Positions 35,884 through 45,664 of a stretch of 51,698 bases of DNA are shown here, piece by piece. The DNA is from Clostridiales bacterium (GTDB taxonomy: Bacteria > Bacillota > Clostridia > Oscillospirales > Oscillospiraceae). How positions within the stretch are numbered: position 1 is the stretch's first letter; each line of letters opens with the position of its first letter. The notes under the pieces were generated by a model. The model was not told where the DNA came from, did no database searches, and saw only the letters and a program-made list of their open reading frames with translations. Both the position numbers and the translations under genes were made by a program. The stretch lies in assembly GCA_029265975.1 (NCBI GenBank), contig JAJUGN010000011.1, forward strand, positions 1 to 51,698, in the 5' to 3' direction.

Positions 35884-35912
35884 TTGACAAAAACGAAAAA
35901 TAACATTATAAT
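35884..35912 (+). promoter_or_regulatory. consensus sigma-A promoter of the aro operon
   Basis: TTGACA (35884-35889) and TATAAT (35907-35912) both match consensus perfectly with the ideal 17-bp spacing. A promoter this strong directly before a leader peptide and attenuator fits control by premature termination rather than by initiation. It begins 15 bp after the fabZ stop. Confidence 0.92.
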
Positions 35913-35938
35913 TAACTAAAATAAGACGGAGGGTTACA

Positions 35939-36019
35939 ATGAAGTCGGTATTTGCAGCTTTTTATTACTTTTACTTTTACTTTATTTATGACAAAGTAAA
36001 AGTGATTTTTGCTGCTTAA
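35939..36019 (+). CDS. Phe/Tyr-rich attenuator leader peptide
   Basis: This is a 26-codon frame with GGAGGG five bases before its ATG. The peptide has Phe at positions 5, 8, 11, 13, 15 and 24 and Tyr at 9, 10, 12, 14 and 17. Nine of the ten residues at positions 8-17 are Phe or Tyr. It lies between the promoter and an intrinsic terminator in front of the Phe/Tyr biosynthesis operon. Its probable role is regulatory: ribosome stalling on scarce Phe-tRNA or Tyr-tRNA would free the downstream antiterminator. It is too short for normal gene prediction and need have no function as a protein. Confidence 0.92.
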   Translation: MKSVFAAFYYFYFYFIYDKVKVIFAA

Positions 36020-36098
36020 AACGTAAATTGTATACCCGGATTTACAAGAAGTACGTGAGCCTCGCAGTGAAATCACTGCGGGGCTCTATAATTTTTTT
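35971..36098 (+). promoter_or_regulatory. transcription attenuator of the aroF-tyrA-aroBAC-pheA operon
   Basis: Three mutually exclusive pairings are visible. The 1:2 hairpin pairs CTTTTACTTT (35974-35983) with AAAGTAAAAG (35993-36002), extendable to 13 bp. The antiterminator 2:3 pairs AGTGATTTTTGCTGC (36001-36015) with GCAGTGAAATCACT (36064-36077). The terminator 3:4 is a 13-bp stem between GAGCCTCGCAGTG (36057-36069) and CACTGCGGGGCTC (36074-36086), followed by TATAA and seven T residues (36092-36098). The Phe/Tyr codons of the leader peptide overlap segment 1, so a stalled ribosome blocks 1:2, allows 2:3 and prevents termination. This is the trp/phe attenuator design. Confidence 0.9.
36057..36098 (+). 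terminator. attenuator terminator upstream of aroF
   Basis: A 13-bp GC-rich stem with an AAAT loop ends five bases before a seven-T run. It lies only 16 bases before the aroF start codon, so it can act only as a regulatory terminator of the aro operon. Confidence 0.88.
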
Positions 36099-36113: not shown

Positions 36114-37118
36114 ATGATAGCCGTACTGAAACAGGGAGCGACAAAACAGCAGATAGAAAACCTTTGCACATGGTTCAAAAGCCAGGGCCTGGACGTTCAT
36201 ATCTCGGAGGGAAAGTTCTACACGGTCATGGGCCTTATAGGCGACACCAGCAAGATAGACATAGACATGCTTCAGGATCTAGAAATAATAGAGTCCGTTA
36301 AGCGCATAAGCGAGCCGTTCAAAAGCGCTAACAGGAAGTTCCATCCCGAGGATTCGGTAATCGGTATCGGCGGCTTAAAAATAGGCGGAGGGAACTTCCA
36401 GCTCATCGCAGGGCCCTGCTCCGTCGAGTCTCCCGAGCAGATAATGGAGATCGCCGAAAAGGTCAAAGCGTCGGGTGCGTCCATACTTCGCGGCGGCGCA
36501 TTTAAGCCCCGCACGTCTCCTTACGACTTCCAGGGCCTTCGCGCCGAAGGGCTTGAGCTTCTCCTTATGGCAAAGGAGAAGACGGGAATGCCCATAATCA
36601 CGGAAATTATGGACGCAAATCACTTACCGCTCTTCGAAAAAGTTGATATAATCCAGGTTGGGGCGCGCAATATGCAGAATTTCGAGCTTCTGAAGGAGCT
36701 CGGGAAAACGAAAAAGCCCATACTTTTGAAGCGGGGGCTGGCTAATAACCTGAAGGAGCTGCTTATGAGCGCCGAATATATAATGGCGGGAGGCAACAAC
36801 GACGTCATACTCTGCGAGCGGGGCATAAGAACCTTTGAGACATACACCCGAAACACTCTTGATTTGTCGGCAATACCCATGCTCCGCGAGCTTACGCACC
36901 TTCCGATAGTCGTCGATCCCAGCCACGCGACCGGCATAGCGAGGCTTGTAAAGCCTATGGCGATGGCGGCGGCTGCGGCGGGAGCGGACGGAATTATGAT
37001 AGAAGTCCATAACGATCCCCAGCATGCCCTCTGCGACGGCGCGCAGTCCCTTACCCCGGAGCAGTTCGAAGACGTCGCCGAGCGCATAGGAAAGATACTC
37101 GAGGTGGTCAAGCAGTGA
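36114..37118 (+). CDS. aroF: 3-deoxy-7-phosphoheptulonate (DAHP) synthase
   Basis: This 334-residue type I-beta DAHP synthase condenses phosphoenolpyruvate and erythrose 4-phosphate, the first step of the shikimate pathway. It has an N-terminal ferredoxin-like domain (MIAVLKQGATKQQIENLCTW to about residue 70) that in Thermotoga-type enzymes binds Tyr or Phe for feedback. The barrel follows, with LIAGPCSVESPEQ, GGAFKPRTSPYDFQGL and a terminal VVDPSHATGIARL. AGGAGG precedes ATG 36114. As the first gene after the attenuator, it would be controlled by both attenuation and probable allosteric feedback. The stop overlaps tyrA. Confidence 0.95.
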   Translation: MIAVLKQGATKQQIENLCTWFKSQGLDVHISEGKFYTVMGLIGDTSKIDIDMLQDLEIIESVKRISEPFKSANRKFHPEDSVIGIGGLKIGGGNFQLIAGPCSVESPEQIMEIAEKVKASGASILRGGAFKPRTSPYDFQGLRAEGLELLLMAKEKTGMPIITEIMDANHLPLFEKVDIIQVGARNMQNFELLKELGKTKKPILLKRGLANNLKELLMSAEYIMAGGNNDVILCERGIRTFETYTRNTLDLSAIPMLRELTHLPIVVDPSHATGIARLVKPMAMAAAAAGADGIMIEVHNDPQHALCDGAQSLTPEQFEDVAERIGKILEVVKQ

Positions 37119-37951
37119 AAATAGGGATAGCGGGTCTCGGGCTCATCGGCGGCTCCTTCGCAAAAGCCTATAAGAGCGCGGGCGGCCATACGGTTCTGGC
37201 CTACGAAATGAACAAGACGATGCTCGGCTTCGCAGGGCTTTCCGGGGCTGTCGACGGCGAGCTCACGGACGACAATATCGGCGGCTGCGACCTTATAATT
37301 ATCGCTCTTTACCCAAAGGACTCAATTGAGTATCTGAAGAGCAAGGCTCCTCTCTTTTCAAAGGAAGCGACGGTGGTCGACTGCTGCGGAACAAAGCGCG
37401 AGATCTGTAAAATCGGATTTGCCCTTGCCGAAAAATACGGCTTCAAGTTCTTCGGAGGTCATCCAATGGCCGGCACTCAGCACTCAGGATTCAAGCACAG
37501 CACCGCAACTATGTTCAACAGGGCTTCAATGATCATTGTGCCGCCTCGTTTTGACGATATGGCGCTCATAAACGGCGTTTCAGAGCTGCTGAAACCTGTA
37601 AAGTTTGGAAACTTTACAATAACGACAGCCGAGAAGCATGACGAGATGATAGCTTTCACCTCGCAAATGGCTCATGTGGTGTCGAATGCCTATATAAAAA
37701 GCCCGACAGCCACTGCGCACAAGGGTTTTTCGGCGGGAAGCTACAAGGATCTCACCAGGGTGGCTTATCTTAACGAGGAAATGTGGGCCGAGCTTTTTGT
37801 GGAAAACAGGGACTACCTTGTAAAGGAAATTGACTTTCTTATAGATTCGCTCAAGAAATACAGGGATGCGATAGCCGAGGGGGATGAAGACAGCCTCAAA
37901 CAGCTTCTGGCGGAAGGTAAGGCCAGAAAAGCGGAGGTGGATTTAAGGTGA
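37115..37951 (+). CDS. tyrA: prephenate dehydrogenase
   Basis: This 278-residue NAD(P)-dependent enzyme converts prephenate to 4-hydroxyphenylpyruvate for tyrosine. The Rossmann motif is GIAGLGLIGGSFAKAYKSAG, followed by VVDCCGTKRE and the active-site FFGGHPMAGTQHSGFKHST with conserved His. No C-terminal ACT domain is present, so feedback inhibition on this enzyme is not evident. The start is GTG 37115, overlapping the aroF stop by four bases. The stop overlaps aroB in the same way. Confidence 0.93.
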   Translation: MKIGIAGLGLIGGSFAKAYKSAGGHTVLAYEMNKTMLGFAGLSGAVDGELTDDNIGGCDLIIIALYPKDSIEYLKSKAPLFSKEATVVDCCGTKREICKIGFALAEKYGFKFFGGHPMAGTQHSGFKHSTATMFNRASMIIVPPRFDDMALINGVSELLKPVKFGNFTITTAEKHDEMIAFTSQMAHVVSNAYIKSPTATAHKGFSAGSYKDLTRVAYLNEEMWAELFVENRDYLVKEIDFLIDSLKKYRDAIAEGDEDSLKQLLAEGKARKAEVDLR

Positions 37952-39015
37952 CTAACGTAAGGGTGGAGGCATCGAAGCGCTACGACATACTAATAGGCAG
38001 GGGCCTGCTTGAAAATTCGGGAAAACACGTCAGAAGCGCGGCGGGAGGAGAAAAGGCCGCGGTTATAACAGACGATGTTGTCGACCGCCTTTACGCGCAC
38101 ACGGTCGTGAAATCGCTGCAGGCTGAGGGCATGAAGACGAGCAGGTTTGTAATTTCGCATGGCGAGAAGTCAAAAAACGCGGTAAATTTCATAGCGATGC
38201 TGAATTTTCTCGCCGAGAACGGCTTTACACGCAAGGATACCGTAATCGCCCTGGGCGGGGGAGTCGTCGGGGATATAGCCGGATTCGCGGCGGCGACATA
38301 TATGCGCGGCATAAATCTCGTCCAAATCCCTACAACGCTTCTCTCGGCCGTGGATTCCTCCGTTGGAGGCAAAACAGCCATCGACCTCGATACGGGGAAA
38401 AATCTTGCGGGAGCTTTTTACCAGCCCGGTCTTGTTATCTGCGACTATTCGACGCTTGATACACTGAGTGGGGAGCTTATAAGCGCCGGCTGCGCAGAAA
38501 TAATAAAATACGGCGTAATAGCCGATTCCGAGCTGTTTTCAATGCTGAAGCAGCCCGTACAAGAAAATTATGAGGAAATAATAGCGCGCTGCGTTTCCAT
38601 AAAGCGTGACATAGTCTGCGAGGATGAGAGGGACGAGGGCAAAAGAAACATCCTGAACTTCGGGCACACCATAGGTCACGCGGTCGAGCTTTGCAGCGGC
38701 TACGAAATCCCGCACGGCTTTGCGGTAGCCGCCGGCATGGCGGCGATGGCGCGCGCTTCGTTCAAGCTGGGGCTTTGCACCAAGGCGTGCAGGGACGGCA
38801 TTATTGACATGATAAGGCTGCACGGGCTGCCTGCGGAAGTCAAATTCGGCGCCGAGGAGCTTTTTAAGGCTGCGCTTTCAGACAAAAAGGGCGGGGGCGG
38901 CACAATAACGATTATCGTTCCGAGAGAAATAGGGCGCTCGGAGCTTAGACAGGTCACAATGGCGGAGCTTAAGGAAATCATAGCTCTCGGAATCGCGGAA
39001 CAGGGGGGCGCATAG
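37948..39015 (+). CDS. aroB: 3-dehydroquinate synthase
   Basis: This 355-residue NAD- and metal-dependent enzyme converts DAHP to 3-dehydroquinate. Motifs are VIALGGGVVGDIAGFAAATY, QIPTTLLSAVDSSVGGKTAI, and the metal ligands around ILNFGHTIGHAVE and IPHGFAVAAGMA. The start is GTG 37948, overlapping tyrA. The stop shares a base with the aroA start. Genes for the next shikimate steps (aroD, aroE, aroK) are absent from this operon and must lie elsewhere. Confidence 0.95.
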   Translation: MTNVRVEASKRYDILIGRGLLENSGKHVRSAAGGEKAAVITDDVVDRLYAHTVVKSLQAEGMKTSRFVISHGEKSKNAVNFIAMLNFLAENGFTRKDTVIALGGGVVGDIAGFAAATYMRGINLVQIPTTLLSAVDSSVGGKTAIDLDTGKNLAGAFYQPGLVICDYSTLDTLSGELISAGCAEIIKYGVIADSELFSMLKQPVQENYEEIIARCVSIKRDIVCEDERDEGKRNILNFGHTIGHAVELCSGYEIPHGFAVAAGMAAMARASFKLGLCTKACRDGIIDMIRLHGLPAEVKFGAEELFKAALSDKKGGGGTITIIVPREIGRSELRQVTMAELKEIIALGIAEQGGA

Positions 39016-40289
39016 TGGAAGTAACTCTCGTTCCGTCGGGGCTCGGAGGCTCAGTCAGGGCCATAGCCTCGAAATCATGCGCACACAGGCTGCTGATCTG
39101 CTCGGCCCTCTCCGATAAAAAAACCTTTGTCGCCTGTACGGAAAGCTCGGACGATATCGAGGCGACAAGGGAATGCCTCAAGGCGCTGGGCGCCAAAATC
39201 GAAAAGATTTCGGGCGGTTTCGAGGTCGTTCCGATTAGCGCCGGGAGCTTTATAAACAAACCGGTGCTCAATTGCGGAGAAAGCGGCTCGACATACAGGT
39301 TTCTTCTGCCTGTCGCATGCGCTTTGGGCGCGGAAGCGACCTTCAGGCTTTCGGGAAGGCTGCCGCAAAGACCGATCTCACACCTTTCGGAGGCGCTCGA
39401 AAAAAACGGATGCAGTTTTGAGGGCATAGGCGAATCGGCGGTGAAATCTTCCGGAAGGCTGCGCAGCGGTGTATTCCGGCTCCCGGGAAATGTGTCGTCG
39501 CAGTATATAAGCGGGCTTCTTTTCGCCCTGCCGCTGCTTTCGGGAGACAGCCTCATAGAGCTCTCCGGAGAGGCCGAATCCAGGGATTACATTTCGATGA
39601 CTCTCTCTGCGCTCGAAACCTTCAAAGCGGATGTGAAAACCGGCGGGAACAGATACTCCGTCCGGGGAGGAGCAAAATACCTGTCTCCGGGCAGGGTCGA
39701 GGTCGAGGGCGACTGGTCGAACGCGGCGTTCTGGCTTTCCGTCGGCGCAATAGGAAATTCGCCGATAGAATGCAGAGGCCTTAAGCCGGACTCCGTGCAG
39801 GGGGACAGGGCTGTTGCGGAAATCCTGAAAAGGTTCGGCGCCGAAGTAAGCACATGCGGCATGAATTGCACGGTAAGGCGCGGCAGGCTCCGGGGCACCG
39901 AGATAGACGCGGGTAATATACCGGATCTGGTTCCGGTTCTGTCCGCGGTGGCTTCTGTTTCCGAGGGCGAAACTCTTATAAAGAACGCCGGACGCCTCCG
40001 CATAAAGGAAAGCGACCGGCTGAGAACGGTTTTCCTGACCCTTTCCGCTCTCGGCGCGGAAATAAAGGAAACCGGCGACGGACTGATCATCAGGGGCAGG
40101 GAACGGCTCTCGGGGGGCGTGGTGGACTCGTTCGGAGACCACAGGATAGCGATGACGGCAGCCGTTGCCTCGACTGTCTGCGAAAAGCCGGTGACAATAA
40201 AAAACGCCGAGGCGGTCAACAAGTCCTACCCGGGATTTTTTGAGGACTTCGCTTCGCTGGGCGGCAAGGTGTTGAAAGGGGGCGTCTGA
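39015..40289 (+). CDS. aroA: 3-phosphoshikimate 1-carboxyvinyltransferase (EPSP synthase)
   Basis: This 424-residue inverse-barrel enzyme joins shikimate 3-phosphate and phosphoenolpyruvate. Recognisable segments are ASKSCAHRLLICSALS, NCGESGSTYRFLLPVACALG, RLRIKESDRLRTV and the terminal VDSFGDHRIAMTAAVAS. The phosphate-binding loop reads GESGSTYR where many enzymes have GNAGTAMR, as in divergent class II-like forms; glyphosate response cannot be judged by eye. The start is GTG 39015, one base overlapping aroB. Confidence 0.93.
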   Translation: MEVTLVPSGLGGSVRAIASKSCAHRLLICSALSDKKTFVACTESSDDIEATRECLKALGAKIEKISGGFEVVPISAGSFINKPVLNCGESGSTYRFLLPVACALGAEATFRLSGRLPQRPISHLSEALEKNGCSFEGIGESAVKSSGRLRSGVFRLPGNVSSQYISGLLFALPLLSGDSLIELSGEAESRDYISMTLSALETFKADVKTGGNRYSVRGGAKYLSPGRVEVEGDWSNAAFWLSVGAIGNSPIECRGLKPDSVQGDRAVAEILKRFGAEVSTCGMNCTVRRGRLRGTEIDAGNIPDLVPVLSAVASVSEGETLIKNAGRLRIKESDRLRTVFLTLSALGAEIKETGDGLIIRGRERLSGGVVDSFGDHRIAMTAAVASTVCEKPVTIKNAEAVNKSYPGFFEDFASLGGKVLKGGV

Positions 40290-41390
40290 GTGGCGTCGGT
40301 TTACGGGAAAAATTTCACGATAACAATATTCGGGCAGTCGCATTCCGGGGGAATAGGAGTCTGCATAGACGGGCTGCCGCCCGGGCTGAAAATAGATTTC
40401 GGAGAGCTGCAGGCTTTCCTTGACAGGCGGGCGCCCGGAAAGAACGGCTATTCCACAAAGCGAAGCGAAGCGGACGTGCCGGAGGTGCTTTCGGGGGTTG
40501 TGAACGGCGTTACCTGCGGAGCTCCGTTTGCCGCCGTAATCCGGAACACGGACGCACGCTCGTCCGATTACAACGAAATAATAGATATACCTCGTCCCTC
40601 GCACGCCGATTATACCGCCAACATTAAATACGGCGGAGCGCAGGATGTAAGAGGAGGCGGGCACTTTTCGGGCAGGCTGACCGCTCCGCTCTGCATCGCG
40701 GGGGGGATATTCATCCAGTTTCTAAGAGCCGAGGGAGTCGAAATCGCTGCCCATGTTCTAAGAATAGGCGGGATATCCGACAGGGCCTTCGACCTGGCGG
40801 GAGTCAGGAGCGAGGATTTCAAGAAACTTAGAAAGAACGCGTTCCCGGTCTTGGACAAAGAACGCGGCGACAGGATGATTGAGCTTATCGAGGACGCGGC
40901 GGCAAAGGGAGATTCTGTGGGCGGGGTAATCGAGTGCGCCGCGCTGGGTCTTCCCGCAGGCCTCGGAGACCCCATGTTCGACGGAATGGAGAACAAAATC
41001 GCCTCGGCCGTATTCGCGGTTCCCGCCGTTAAGGGCATCGAGTTCGGAAACGGCTTCGAGTGCGCGTCGCTCAGGGGCAGCGAGAATAACGACGCGTTTG
41101 CCACTGACGGAAAAAGGATACGCACTCTGAGCAACAATCACGGCGGCATACTCGGAGGCATAACATCAGGAATGCCGCTGGTATTCCGTGCGGCGTTTAA
41201 GCCCACGCCATCGATATCGAGGGAACAGAAAAGCGTGAGCCTTTCGAGAATGGAGAATACGCTTCTTACGATTAAGGGAAGGCACGACCCGTGCATAGTG
41301 CCGAGAGCGGTGCCGTGCGTTGAGGCGGCAGCCGCCATCGCCATTTACGATGCCCTACTGGAAAGCAAAAAATATGAGGGAGGCCTATAA
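40290..41390 (+). CDS. aroC: chorismate synthase
   Basis: This 366-residue FMN-requiring lyase makes chorismate from EPSP. Motifs include TIFGQSHSGGIGVCIDGLPP, RPSHADYTANIKYGGAQDVR, GGHFSGRLTAPLCIAGG and the C-terminal NNHGGILGGITSGMPLVFR with KGRHDPCIVPRAVP. The start is GTG 40290 directly after the aroA stop. It supplies chorismate to the following pheA product. Confidence 0.95.
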   Translation: MASVYGKNFTITIFGQSHSGGIGVCIDGLPPGLKIDFGELQAFLDRRAPGKNGYSTKRSEADVPEVLSGVVNGVTCGAPFAAVIRNTDARSSDYNEIIDIPRPSHADYTANIKYGGAQDVRGGGHFSGRLTAPLCIAGGIFIQFLRAEGVEIAAHVLRIGGISDRAFDLAGVRSEDFKKLRKNAFPVLDKERGDRMIELIEDAAAKGDSVGGVIECAALGLPAGLGDPMFDGMENKIASAVFAVPAVKGIEFGNGFECASLRGSENNDAFATDGKRIRTLSNNHGGILGGITSGMPLVFRAAFKPTPSISREQKSVSLSRMENTLLTIKGRHDPCIVPRAVPCVEAAAAIAIYDALLESKKYEGGL

Positions 41391-42533
41391 ATGGACCTGA
41401 CTGATTACAGAAAACAGATAGACGAGGCGGACAAGGAGCTTGTAAGGGTTTTCTGCGAGAGAATGGAAATTTGCAAAAACATTGCGAAGTATAAAATGGA
41501 GAACAAGCTGCCCGTATTCGATTCCGCAAGAGAGCGCAGCAAGCTCGCGGAGCTCTGCGATTCCGTGGATGAGAGCATGAGAAGCTATATAGGGGCGCTA
41601 TATCCAATGATTTTCGAGCTGAGCCGCCTGTACCAGAAAAGGATAATAGGTTCGGATTCGGGGCTTCTCGAGAAGATAAAGGGGGCCATCGAGGCGACTG
41701 ACAAGGTGTTTCCGGAAAGCGCAGTCGTCGCCTGCCAGGGCGTTGAGGGAGCCTATTCGCAGATAGCCTGCGAAAAGCTGTTCAGGATACCGAACATAAT
41801 GTACTTCAGCAGCTGGGAGGGTGTGTTCGCCGCAATTGACAAGGGCCTTTGCCGCTACGGCATACTTCCCATCGAGAACAGCACGGCGGGCTCGGTGAAC
41901 AGGATATACGATCTCATGATGAAGTACAATTTCAGCATTGTGAAGAGCGTGAGACTGAAGGTCGATCACAATCTTCTCGCCAGAAAGGGTGCGAAGCTCG
42001 AGGAAATAAGGGAGATATTTTCTCACGAACAGGCAATCAACCAGTGCGGCGAATTCCTTTCGTCTCTCAGGAACGTAAAGGTGACGGTCTGCGAAAATAC
42101 CGCCGCCGCGGCAAAGCTTGTGGCGGAATCGGGAAGGGGAGACGTCGCGGCGCTTTCCTCACGCTCCTGCGCGGAGATATACGGCCTTGAGTGCCTTGCC
42201 GAGGCCGTTCAGGACACGGGCAACAACTATACGAGGTTCATCTGCATCTCAAAGAAGCTCGAAATATACGCCGGAGCAGACAGGACCAGCATAATGATGA
42301 TAATTTCGCACAAGCCCGGCTCGCTGTATAACGTGCTCTCCAGATTCTACGCTCTGGGCATAAACCTCGTAAAGCTCGAAAGCCGCCCGCTTCCCGACAG
42401 GGACTTTGAGTTCATGTTCTACTTCGATCTTGAAACATCGGTATATTCAAGTCAGTTCGCGCAGCTTATCGCGGAGCTTGACAGCATCTGCGAAAAGTTC
42501 AGGTATTTGGGCAGCTATTCGGAAATGGTATAA
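41391..42533 (+). CDS. pheA: bifunctional chorismate mutase/prephenate dehydratase (P-protein)
   Basis: This 380-residue protein has three parts: an AroQ chorismate mutase (residues about 1-90, DLTDYRKQIDEADKELVRVF and following ICKNIAKYK); a prephenate dehydratase (about 105-280, VACQGVEGAYSQIACEKLF, GILPIENSTAGSVNRIYDLM and the catalytic NNYTRFI); and a C-terminal ACT domain (about 295-372) with GSLYNVLSRFYALGINLVKL and ESRP, the Phe-binding motif. It makes phenylpyruvate for phenylalanine and is probably Phe-inhibited. It is the last gene of the attenuated operon, and the terminator-nested repeat B follows 15 bases after its stop. Confidence 0.95.
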   Translation: MDLTDYRKQIDEADKELVRVFCERMEICKNIAKYKMENKLPVFDSARERSKLAELCDSVDESMRSYIGALYPMIFELSRLYQKRIIGSDSGLLEKIKGAIEATDKVFPESAVVACQGVEGAYSQIACEKLFRIPNIMYFSSWEGVFAAIDKGLCRYGILPIENSTAGSVNRIYDLMMKYNFSIVKSVRLKVDHNLLARKGAKLEEIREIFSHEQAINQCGEFLSSLRNVKVTVCENTAAAAKLVAESGRGDVAALSSRSCAEIYGLECLAEAVQDTGNNYTRFICISKKLEIYAGADRTSIMMIISHKPGSLYNVLSRFYALGINLVKLESRPLPDRDFEFMFYFDLETSVYSSQFAQLIAELDSICEKFRYLGSYSEMV

Positions 42534-42549
42534 AGCATGAAAAAATGCA

Positions 42550-42581
42550 TCGCCCCCCAGGCAAAAGCCTGAGGGCGATGC
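42550..42581 (-). terminator. terminator hairpin, left flank of repeat B
   Basis: The stem GCATCGCCC/GGGCGATGC has an inner CAGGC/GCCTG part and an AAAA loop. On the minus strand it is followed by ATTTTTTC, a good T-run, so this copy can end the leucine operon transcript. On the plus strand no T-run follows. Confidence 0.7.
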
Positions 42582-42771
42582 AGACTGTCAAAAAGCCCTT
42601 TGGGCTTTTTTGACAAGGGGGCTACATGACGGCCGCTCTGCCGCGCCCGCCATGAGAGCTGTCATTTCCGACGTACAGGCCGCCGGAAATGACAGATTTG
42701 ACTTTTTTCCGCTATTCGCGGCGGAAATTCTGCGAAGCTTTTTTGCTGCAAGCAAGTTCTTTGACAAGCTG

Positions 42772-42810
42772 AATCGCCCCCCAGGCAAAAGCCTGAGGGG
42801 CGATTTTTTA
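42772..42810 (+). terminator. terminator hairpin, right flank of repeat B
   Basis: The stem ATCGCCCC/GGGGCGAT has an inner CAGGC/GCCTG part and an AAAA loop followed by TTTTTTATATTTTTT, a strong terminator on the plus strand for the aro operon. It lies at the very end of leuB. Confidence 0.78.
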
Positions 42811-43881
42811 TATTTTTTGAAGTATTCTTTCCGTCATCTCGGAGGTGCCGAGGGGTTTCGCCTTGCTGTCCCCGAGGATGTCGGCGGTCCTCGCACCCTC
42901 TGCAAGAACCGCTGCGACCGCGTTTTCTATGCAGTCCGCCTCCTTTGCGAGATTGAAGGAGAAGCGCAGCATCATCGCTGCCGAGAGTATGGTGGCTATC
43001 GGATTAGCCACGCCCTTGCCGGCTATGTCGGGAGCGGAGCCGTGTATAGGCTCGTACATTCCCAGAGTTCCGGTCCCAAGCGAGGCGGAAGGAAGAAGAC
43101 CGATGGAGCCCGTTATCATGGAGGCCTCGTCCGAGAGAATGTCGCCGAACATGTTGCTTGTCACTACGACGTCGAACTGCGAGGGCTTTCTCACAAGCTG
43201 CATGGCGGCGTTGTCAACAAGCATATCTGAGTACTCGACCTCGGGGTATTCGGATCTTAAGGCGTGCATGGTTTCACGCCACAGCCTCGAGCTTTCAAGT
43301 ACGTTGGCCTTGTCGATGCTCGTGAGCTTTTTCCGGCGCTTCATCGCCATTTCAAAGCCGATTCTGCCGATGCGTTCGATTTCGGATACGGAGTAAAGCT
43401 CCGTATCGAAGGCGTAGGGACCCGTTTCACCTACGCCCCGTCCGCTTTCGCCGAAGTAGATTCCTCCCGTAAGCTCCCGGATTATTATGAGGTCTATGCC
43501 CTCCTCGGCTATGCCGCTCTTTAAGGGGCACTCGGATACGAGAGCCCTGTGGAGCACCGCGGGGCGGATGTTCGCGTAAAGCTTCATGGCGCTTCGAAGC
43601 CCCAAAAGAGCTTTTTCGGGACGGAGATGACCCGGCAGCGTGTCCCACTTGGGGCCGCCTACCGCGCCGAGCATGACGCTGTCGCTTTCAAGACAGGTTC
43701 TGACGCTCTCCTCGGGAAGCGGCACTCCCGTCGCGTCTATGGCGCAGCCGCCTGCGAGCACATCTGTATAGCTGAAGCTGTGTCCGAATTTGGCCCCGAT
43801 TTTGTTCAGCACCAAAACCGCGGAGTCAATTATTTCAGGGCCTATTCCGTCGCCCTTTACAAGCGCAATTTTATAGTTCAT
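42808..43881 (-). CDS. leuB: 3-isopropylmalate dehydrogenase
   Basis: This 357-residue NAD-dependent decarboxylating dehydrogenase has KIALVKGDGIGPEIIDSAVL, the signature RELTGGIYFGESGRG, and the nucleotide region NMFGDILSDEASMITGSIGL with EPIHGSAPDIAGKG. It oxidises 3-isopropylmalate for leucine, and with CimA products it also acts on beta-methylmalate toward isoleucine. It is the last gene of the branched-chain operon, 10 bases after leuD. Confidence 0.96.
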   Translation of the reverse strand: MNYKIALVKGDGIGPEIIDSAVLVLNKIGAKFGHSFSYTDVLAGGCAIDATGVPLPEESVRTCLESDSVMLGAVGGPKWDTLPGHLRPEKALLGLRSAMKLYANIRPAVLHRALVSECPLKSGIAEEGIDLIIIRELTGGIYFGESGRGVGETGPYAFDTELYSVSEIERIGRIGFEMAMKRRKKLTSIDKANVLESSRLWRETMHALRSEYPEVEYSDMLVDNAAMQLVRKPSQFDVVVTSNMFGDILSDEASMITGSIGLLPSASLGTGTLGMYEPIHGSAPDIAGKGVANPIATILSAAMMLRFSFNLAKEADCIENAVAAVLAEGARTADILGDSKAKPLGTSEMTERILQKI

Positions 43882-43891
43882 GGCGGCTCCT

Positions 43892-44392
43892 TTACTTCAG
43901 CACGTTCTTTTCGGCTGCGGCGAGAAGGCCTCCGGCCGCAATGATGGCTTGCAGGAAGGGCGGGAAGGGCGCTATCTTGAATTCCTTCGACTTCGTTACG
44001 TTGCGTACTATGCCCTTGTCAAAATTAACCTCGACTTCGTCGCCGTCGTCTATGCCGGCCACGGCTTCCGGCGATTCGATTATGGGAAGGCCGATATTGA
44101 TCGAGTTCCGGTAGAAAATCCTCGCGAAGTCCTCGGCTATGACGCAGGAAACGCCGGCGGCCTTGATGGCCAGGGGCGCGTGCTCTCTGGAGGAGCCGCA
44201 GCCGAAATTCCTGCCGGCGACCATGACCGTGCCATTAGCGGACGCTACGCGGCTCGGGAAGGTTTTGTCCAGGTCCTCCATGCAGTGGGAGGCAAGCTCC
44301 TTTTCGTCTGTGGTGTTGAGGTATCTCGCGGGGATTATGACGTCGGTGTCGACGTTGTGGCCGTACTTAATCGCTTTTCCCTTTACGTTCAT
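43892..44392 (-). CDS. leuD: isopropylmalate dehydratase small subunit
   Basis: This 166-residue swivel-domain protein has [20 protein letters not shown] and [20 protein letters not shown], the signature of LeuD, the small subunit that completes the aconitase-like enzyme with LeuC. The size fits the short archaeal/clostridial type. It is 12 bases downstream of leuC. Confidence 0.95.
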
Positions 44393-44404
44393 TTCATTTG
44401 CCTC

Positions 44405-45664
44405 CTATATCTCGTCCGGAGATGCTATTTTGCCGGCAATCGCAGAAGCCGCAGCGACCGCGGGGCTCGCAAGGTAGACCTCGCTCTCAACGTGTCCCAT
44501 GCGCCCGACGAAGTTGCGGTTGGTGGTTGCCACGGCGCGCTCGCCCTTGGCCAGTATGCCCATGTGCCCTCCGAGACAGGGGCCGCAGGTGGGCGTCGAA
44601 ACCGCGCAGCCGGCGTCGATGAAGATTTCCAGAAGCCCCTTCTTCAAGGCCTGCAGGTATATTTCCTGCGTGGCGGGGATTATCAGAACGCGGCAGCCCT
44701 TGTGCACTTTTTTGCCCTTCATTATTGCGGCGGCTATCTCGAAATCTTCGAGCCTTCCGTTGGTGCAGGAGCCTATAACTACCTGGTCTATCCTTATTTC
44801 TCCGACCTCGTCGATGGTCTTCGTGTTTTCAGGCAAATGCGGGAAAGCCACGGTCGGCTTGACGGCTGAAAGGTCGATTTCTATCGTCCTGTCGTATTCG
44901 GCGTCCGGATCGGCCTTATAGACCACCGTGCGCTTGCGCCCGTGCGCCTTCTCGTATTCCTCGGTCTTTTCGTCGACCTCGAAGATGCCGTTTTTAGCGC
45001 CGGCCTCTATCGCCATGTTCGCCATGCAGAGCCTGTCGTCCATACTGAGGTGAGAAAGCCCGTCTCCGGTGAACTCCATCGACTTGTACTGTGCGCCGTT
45101 GACGCCTATCATCCCGATGATGTGGAGGATGATGTCCTTGCCGGAGACCCACTTGCCCGGCTTGTTCTTAAGCACGAATTTAATGGCCGAGGGAACCTTG
45201 AACCATGCGGTTCCGGTCGCCATGCCGTAAGCCATGTCGGTGGATCCGACGCCTGTGGAAAACGCGCCGAGCGCGCCGTAGGTGCAGGTGTGGGAGTCCG
45301 CTCCGATTACTAGGTCGCCGCTGCCCACCAGCCCCTTTTCCGGAAGAAGCGCGTGCTCGACGCCCATTTCGCCCACGTCGAAGAAGTTTGTGATGCCCTT
45401 TTCTCTCGCAAACTCTCTGACAATCTTGCACTGCTCGGCGGCTTTTATATCCTTGTTGGGAGCGAAGTGATCCATGACCAGGGCTATTTTATTGCAGTCA
45501 AATACGGCCGGAGCTTTGGTTTTGGCGTATTCCTTTATTGCGACCGGCGCCGTGACGTCGTTGCCGAGCACCAGGTCGAGCCTGGCCATTACTATTTCCC
45601 CGGCCTTTACCTCCTCGCGTCCGCAATGGGCGGCAAGGATTTTCTGAGACATTGTCATTCCCAT
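44405..45664 (-). CDS. leuC: isopropylmalate dehydratase large subunit
   Basis: This protein of about 419 residues belongs to the aconitase superfamily, LeuC/homoaconitase-type, and carries a [4Fe-4S] cluster. Conserved parts are [37 protein letters not shown] and [18 protein letters not shown], which supply cluster cysteines. The frame is open up to 45718, but ATG 45664, nine bases after AGGAGG, is the likely start and lies 13 bases after the cimA stop. With LeuD it isomerises isopropylmalate and citramalate. Confidence 0.94.

Follow-up and report, generated by a model that had tools for sequence, protein, structure and literature searches.

The window, by which the whole analysed stretch of 51,698 nucleotides is meant, contains a run of six genes, aroF-tyrA-aroB-aroA-aroC-pheA, with a promoter and a short leader upstream. 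These genes cover the common aromatic pathway together with the Phe and Tyr branches. Their NCBIfam names, which for tyrA and pheA come from matches below cut-off, agree with the preliminary description, where the leader was said to precede an operon for aromatic amino acids. The host was there called a Firmicute, and this also holds: aroF matches that of Sporobacter termitidis, the next named isolate, at 81% among the best 80 of at least 593 named-genome relatives. Table 1 lists the features of the locus. Two hairpins lie 3' of pheA at about 42547-42612, with a T run on the second. Further downstream, the frames at 42610-43230 and 43880-44869 have no Pfam match at E 1e-5, and the first has no NCBIfam match either; these frames may not be genes.

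Table 1. Features of the aroF leader and operon (positions are those of the window).
Feature	Position	Strand	Basis or remark
Promoter TTGACA-17-TATAAT	35884..35912	+	12/12 consensus match by scan; TTGACA 35884-35889, TATAAT 35907-35912, sigma-70-type
Shine-Dalgarno GGAGGG of leader frame	35928..35933	+	sequence; also found by frame scan
Leader peptide MKSVFAAFYYFYFYFIYDKVKVIFAA + stop, 26 codons, 9 Phe/Tyr in codons 8-17	35939..36019	+	sequence
Segment 1, the Phe/Tyr codon run	35964..35983	+	pairs with 35993-36006 in two alternative registers
Segment 2, within leader frame	35993..36015	+	partner is segment 1, or segment 3 through 36001-36015
Segment 3, part pairing with segment 2 (antiterminator)	36064..36077	+	
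3:4 intrinsic terminator	36057..36098	+	13-bp stem 36057-36086, tail TATAATTTTTTT to 36098; found by scan
aroF, DAHP synthase	36114..37118	+	NCBIfam
tyrA, prephenate dehydrogenase	37115..37951	+	NCBIfam, every match under its curated cut-off
aroB	37948..39015	+	NCBIfam
aroA	39015..40289	+	NCBIfam
aroC	40290..41390	+	NCBIfam
pheA, chorismate mutase / prephenate dehydratase	41391..42533	+	NCBIfam, under curated cut-offs, best by 4 bits

The short frame, its good Shine-Dalgarno sequence and the nine Phe/Tyr codons among the ten at positions 8-17 are all present in the sequence at the place first noted. The MKSVFAAFYYFYFYFIYDKVKVIFAA frame is probably translated as a leader peptide. The leader RNA is unusually stable, with a folding z of -7.16 and none of 200 shuffles equally stable. 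The terminator stem has an energy of -25.0 kcal/mol and is followed by a U tract and then aroF.

The proposed 2:3 antiterminator is borne out by both the sequence complementarity of the two segments and folding, and the codon run pairs with segment 2 on folding, which places the Phe/Tyr codons on segment 1 as described. The other helices differ in detail from the preliminary description. Segments 1 and 2 are complementary as claimed, but the lowest-energy ribosome-free helix is shifted to another register within the TTTTAC repeat, joining 35964-35977 to 35993-36006 and 35954-35958 to 36011-36015. The terminator has its 13-bp stem, but the T7 run assigned to it (36092-36098) is not contiguous with that stem, the tail being TATAATTTTTTT. 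The statement that only one of the competing pairs can form at a time is true of the full 1:2 helix; on folding, a partial 1:2 helix coexists with 2:3 when the ribosome is at codons 8-11.

Regions upstream of aroF were collected from named genomes (the best 80 of at least 593 relatives), from related genomes (48 of 60 matched, 30 best loci) and from the window's own genome. Because only the best loci were taken from the first two sources, the sample leans to close relatives. Two loci were dropped before the count of 111: L003, which duplicates L084, and L027, for which the upstream sequence is just 57 bases long. L004/L087 and L042/L100 are probably the same records counted twice. With a leader frame defined by at least 6 Phe/Tyr in 10 residues, a frame is present in 85 of the 111 regions and is accompanied by a Shine-Dalgarno sequence in 73. 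Retention of the short frame by relatives had been fixed beforehand as a point on which the attenuator reading could fail. Shuffled upstream regions gave a frame in 50 of 2220 cases and a frame with Shine-Dalgarno in 4 of 2220, and the opposite strand gave a Phe/Tyr-rich frame in 2 of 111 regions. A chance frame is rejected on these counts. The same scan with other residue pairs, in which coding stretches of upstream genes can count, found 27 (I/L), 25 (L/V) and 19 (K/R) of the 111 regions.

The remaining 26 regions fall below the frame threshold. Five of these have weaker aromatic frames at fitting places, and two (L001 and L002) belong to the other DAHP synthases of the window genome. Eighteen of the 26 were compared with Rfam and gave no match at gathering score, a threshold that misses six of the nine T-boxes in the window genome.

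At least two Phe and at least two Tyr residues occur in 84 of the 85 leaders. Trp accounts for 4 of 2208 residues across 81 distinct leaders. The near-constant presence of Phe and Tyr and near absence of Trp fit an operon making Phe and Tyr. One leader, MKNSNCTANKIWYWYYFAMNDSKVSLQCTEL (L050, 196 bases upstream of aroF), has Trp mixed with Tyr/Phe codons. Another, with a Phe/Tyr leader 181 bases upstream of aroF, is from a record named Treponemataceae (L012); its aroF is 77% identical to that of the window, and the locus reflects either transfer or a misbinned contig.

The core of segment 2, GCTGC, lies within the leader frame in frame 0, 1 and 2 in 19, 8 and 4 of the 81 distinct leaders, respectively. 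Another 22 matches to the core pattern after the stop codon may include the terminator arm and were left out as evidence. Because its reading frame varies among relatives, the core is conserved at the RNA level rather than as peptide, and conservation of the frame for its peptide alone is rejected on the same grounds. This bears on the idea that the frame is a gene for a small hydrophobic (membrane) protein that has a function of its own, next to an incidental terminator. Such a protein would account for a short Phe/Tyr-rich peptide and for the Ala-containing stretch before the run (for example FAAEY), which recurs in relatives. Its length, its C-terminus and the frame of the segment-2 core vary, however, while the RNA motif is constant.

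A terminator lies downstream in 81 of the 85 leaders, and the helix statistics use these 81, the four without a terminator being dropped. The complementarity of segment 2 to the 5' arm of the terminator exceeds that of 95% of shuffles in 64 of the 81 leaders, and 1:2 complementarity does so in 44. In only 26 of the 81 does the 2:3 duplex equal the terminator in stability. Pairs were counted in an alignment of 24 of these leaders, which were picked for similar layout, so the counts favour the conserved type. In the 24 rows, pairing in the terminator reaches 92.0%, and 10 of its 13 pairs show both-side changes, against 2-6 when the arms are slid. For the antiterminator, pairing is 85.6%, and 5 of 12 pairs show such changes, against 1-2 when slid; its covariation score is 0.141, and a slide of +3 comes nearly equal (0.137, at 61.4% paired).

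The 1:2 helix was counted in the register first noted, extended to 35971-35983 with 35993-36005. This 13-bp helix is 90.7% paired in the 24 rows and has both-side changes in 4 of 13 pairs. Over all 18 1:2 pairs, pairing is 80.5% and drops to 42-60% on sliding; in the lower part (GCAGC/GCTGC) it is only 54.2%. Both-side changes occur in 5 of the 18 pairs and are exceeded at slides +2 and +3 (7 and 6, respectively). Compensatory change thus argues strongly for the predicted 3:4 helix and clearly for the predicted 2:3 helix, and the putative 1:2 helix draws its support from pairing rather than compensation. Covariation of all three helices had been named as a check; it is seen for the terminator and antiterminator, and for the 1:2 helix the both-side changes are matched by slid controls. 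That the terminator and antiterminator covary also speaks against a membrane protein with an incidental terminator.

A covariance model (R1) was built from the 24 leaders, ending at the tail of the terminator and containing no genes, and was searched at E <= 0.01 in 391 genomes of the class. Under this narrow model and its strict filters, 60 places were matched in only 49 of the 391 genomes. Downstream of them are aroF (38), pheA (9), tyrA (1), tyrS (1), a paaK-like gene (1), a leuA-like gene (1) and nothing recognised (9); among the last nine, one place is truncated where its contig ends, and two almost coincide on opposite strands. The 60 include four rows of the model itself (window, L047, L059 and L020), all before aroF. 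Two of the pheA places, L164 and L177, have no leader frame in the scan. Each of the 35 places at E <= 1e-5, among them that of the window, has aroF, pheA, tyrS or the paaK-like gene downstream. A search of 398 genomes of the phylum at E <= 0.001 gave a match in only eight, namely the window's own and seven outside the class. Six of these seven are before aroF, and a leader frame is seen in five of the seven.

With all 35 of the stronger matches preceding aro/phe/tyr-type genes, a membrane protein of independent function is very improbable. The genes downstream bear equally on a second possibility, that the leader senses a general slow-down of translation, for example by antibiotics, and not Phe/Tyr supply. 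In its favour, other Firmicute leaders reportedly sense ribosome-targeting drugs. In 84 of 85 leaders, however, the codons correspond to what the operon makes, and the linked genes are mostly Phe/Tyr genes. A general sensor is given only a slight chance, little above that of the membrane protein and raised a little by the weak covariation of the 1:2 helix, and a response to Phe/Tyr supply is the preferred reading.

Three of the matched places have other genes downstream. Upstream of tyrS at L187:460-615 (G410:C4) are a terminator and a Tyr leader, MTTFLRNRSHKQAYYYLFS, in which Tyr is encoded three times (YYY); the tyrS of the window genome has a T-box (L120). At L186:315-480 (G166:C158), leader MFLSVLFVFICLYFYFFAFLFCKSKSVLCCG and a terminator precede a phenylacetate-CoA-ligase-like gene at 434-1816. 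This single instance may tie aryl-acid salvage to Phe/Tyr supply. At L188:530-720 (G344:C54), an Ile/Leu-rich leader, MNTLLFANYILLLIAIIILITKKSKNSAICRV, and a terminator-like hairpin precede a 2-isopropylmalate-synthase-like gene; leader attenuation may therefore extend to branched-chain genes in the clade.

Control of the operon by a different RNA regulator (a T-box, a TRAP-like leader or a riboswitch) has in its favour that T-boxes are common in the window genome, with nine matches to the T-box model, three of them above gathering score. The window leader, however, has no match at gathering score in Rfam 15, enterobacterial leader families included. At E up to 5, it has six matches under gathering scores to unrelated families, none of them a T-box. 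A T-box, riboswitch or other Rfam family is rejected for the site, and the earlier remark that no T-box is visible there is upheld by a model that finds nine elsewhere in the same genome. Across 20 loci, the window's among them, Rfam at gathering score returned only five tRNAs and a glmS element. TRAP-regulated leaders have GAG/UAG repeats and go with a TRAP gene. On these T-box and Rfam searches, a different RNA regulator is given a negligible probability, and a leader-peptide attenuator is preferred.

Eight of the T-boxes precede trpE, trpB, a trpB-like gene, asnB, tyrS, thrS, a symporter and a frame of unclear kind. The window genome has three DAHP synthases. In one locus (L122:295-6083, G000:C71), a T-box is followed by trpEGDCF, and a second aroF ends the run. 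The specifier of this T-box, read by eye from the alignment, is UGG. With a trp T-box and the aroF leader in one genome, one cell therefore seems to sense Trp by T-box and the Phe/Tyr supply for synthesis by leader peptide. The T-box at L116:1501-3240 (G000:C37) is followed by a frame that combines a xylose-isomerase-like barrel with an AMP-binding domain.

The leader was folded after removal of everything 5' of the leading edge of the ribosome, at nascent ends 36074, 36077, 36080 and 36083 and as the full transcript. By convention, this edge lies 13 bases beyond the first nucleotide of the codon in the A site. At nascent end 36077, the ribosome-free RNA has 17.9 computed expected pairs of 1:2 and none of 2:3. 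A ribosome stalled at codons 8-17 gives 13.5-14 pairs of 2:3, which for codons 8-11 stand beside a partial 1:2 helix, and a ribosome at the stop codon gives no 2:3 pairs. The computed pattern, in which a stalled ribosome frees segment 2 and one at the stop codon covers it, holds at nascent ends 36074 and 36077. At 36080, terminator and antiterminator are roughly balanced when the ribosome stalls at codons 11-15. By 36083 the terminator is ahead, and on the full transcript it is the best fold in every ribosome state. E. coli pheL folded in the same way keeps the antiterminator as its best full-transcript fold with a stalled ribosome (codons 6, 7 and 10 tried), and such an equilibrium antiterminator is absent from the masked full-transcript folds of the window leader. 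The folding check proposed earlier thus gave the expected states on nascent RNA but termination in every state on the full transcript. Since the terminator prevails in every state once the transcript is complete, the switch would have to be a kinetic one, decided during transcription.

The folding results suggest the following course of events. In a leader free of ribosomes, segment 1 would pair with segment 2, leaving segment 3 free for segment 4, and transcription would stop. A ribosome passing quickly through the Phe/Tyr run would reach the stop codon and cover segment 2, and the terminator would again form. If tRNA-Phe or tRNA-Tyr is uncharged, the ribosome would stall in the run and cover segment 1. 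Segment 2 would then pair with segment 3 before segment 4 is complete, and RNA polymerase would read through into aroF-tyrA-aroB-aroA-aroC-pheA. Stalling, read-through and the choice of fold during transcription are all predicted steps.

The leader is accordingly taken, with a probability of roughly 0.9, for a ribosome-mediated transcription attenuator responding to the charging of tRNA-Phe and tRNA-Tyr. Judging from sequence comparison, a similar switch probably precedes these genes in many Clostridia of gut and rumen.

The closest well-known counterpart is the pheL-pheA attenuator of E. coli (Rfam family Phe_leader). Both have a short leader with Phe codons and 1:2, 2:3 and 3:4 helices, the 1:2 helix of the window leader being putative; pheL controls a prephenate dehydratase, and the window leader would do the same. 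Unlike pheL, the window leader has Phe and Tyr codons together and precedes a whole aroF-tyrA-aroBAC-pheA operon; its segment 2 lies inside the frame, its antiterminator is favoured only on nascent RNA, and it has no Rfam match. The enterobacterial design named in the preliminary description is therefore kept in its logic, but not in the position of segment 2 or in the equilibrium between terminator and antiterminator. T-box leaders of aromatic genes likewise sense tRNA charging for related pathways. T-boxes bind tRNA directly, without translation of a leader, and Clostridia are better known for a kind of switch other than leader peptides.

It had also been remarked that Firmicutes usually control such genes by T-boxes or TRAP. 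Leader-peptide attenuators already published from the phylum temper this surprise; the following is taken from the available portions of the publications. His leaders of hisS/hisZ were described in bacilli, to their authors' knowledge as the first outside Proteobacteria and Actinobacteria (PMC2965389), his attenuators in the B. cereus group, Eubacteriales and Erysipelotrichales (PMC9413887), and an ilv-leu leader in S. aureus (PMC5794164). These His and Ile/Leu leaders share codon runs, competing hairpins and a T-box-rich phylum with the window leader and differ in amino acids and genes. Tyrosine biosynthesis in the B. cereus group is under T-box control (PMC2494555). Nearest in gene context is uORFC-13-1, a candidate uORF with 24 representatives before aroF in Acholeplasma and environmental sequences (PMC8632094). 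Like the window leader, it contains one or more Phe codons and has a terminator between it and aroF. Compared by its description only, the available text mentions a further paired substructure and does not mention Tyr codons or 2:3 pairing. A literature search that mostly covered papers outside subscription found no description of a dual Phe/Tyr leader family in Clostridia. The kind of switch is already known, and the broad dual Phe/Tyr leader family in Clostridia, which has no Rfam match, seems new.

On balance, and with some reserve, the leader is placed in a large, probably old family of dual Phe/Tyr leader attenuators with a small regulon (the aroF operon, pheA, and at times tyrA, tyrS or a phenylacetate-CoA-ligase-like gene), spread over numerous clostridial families and one or more further classes of Bacillota beside T-boxes that run Trp genes. 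If this is true, annotators could mark an element for which Rfam 15 gives no match. The ribosome would also have to trail RNA polymerase closely enough at aroF-type genes to decide termination. This would contrast with B. subtilis, the model organism of the phylum, where, according to the available part of a review (PMC7858274), RNA polymerase outruns the ribosomes (runaway transcription); a working attenuator in Clostridia would thus need local coupling or pausing. Clostridia would then have a second, translation-coupled way of sensing Phe/Tyr alongside the T-boxes that the same genome carries, and its many natural variants would lend themselves to comparison.
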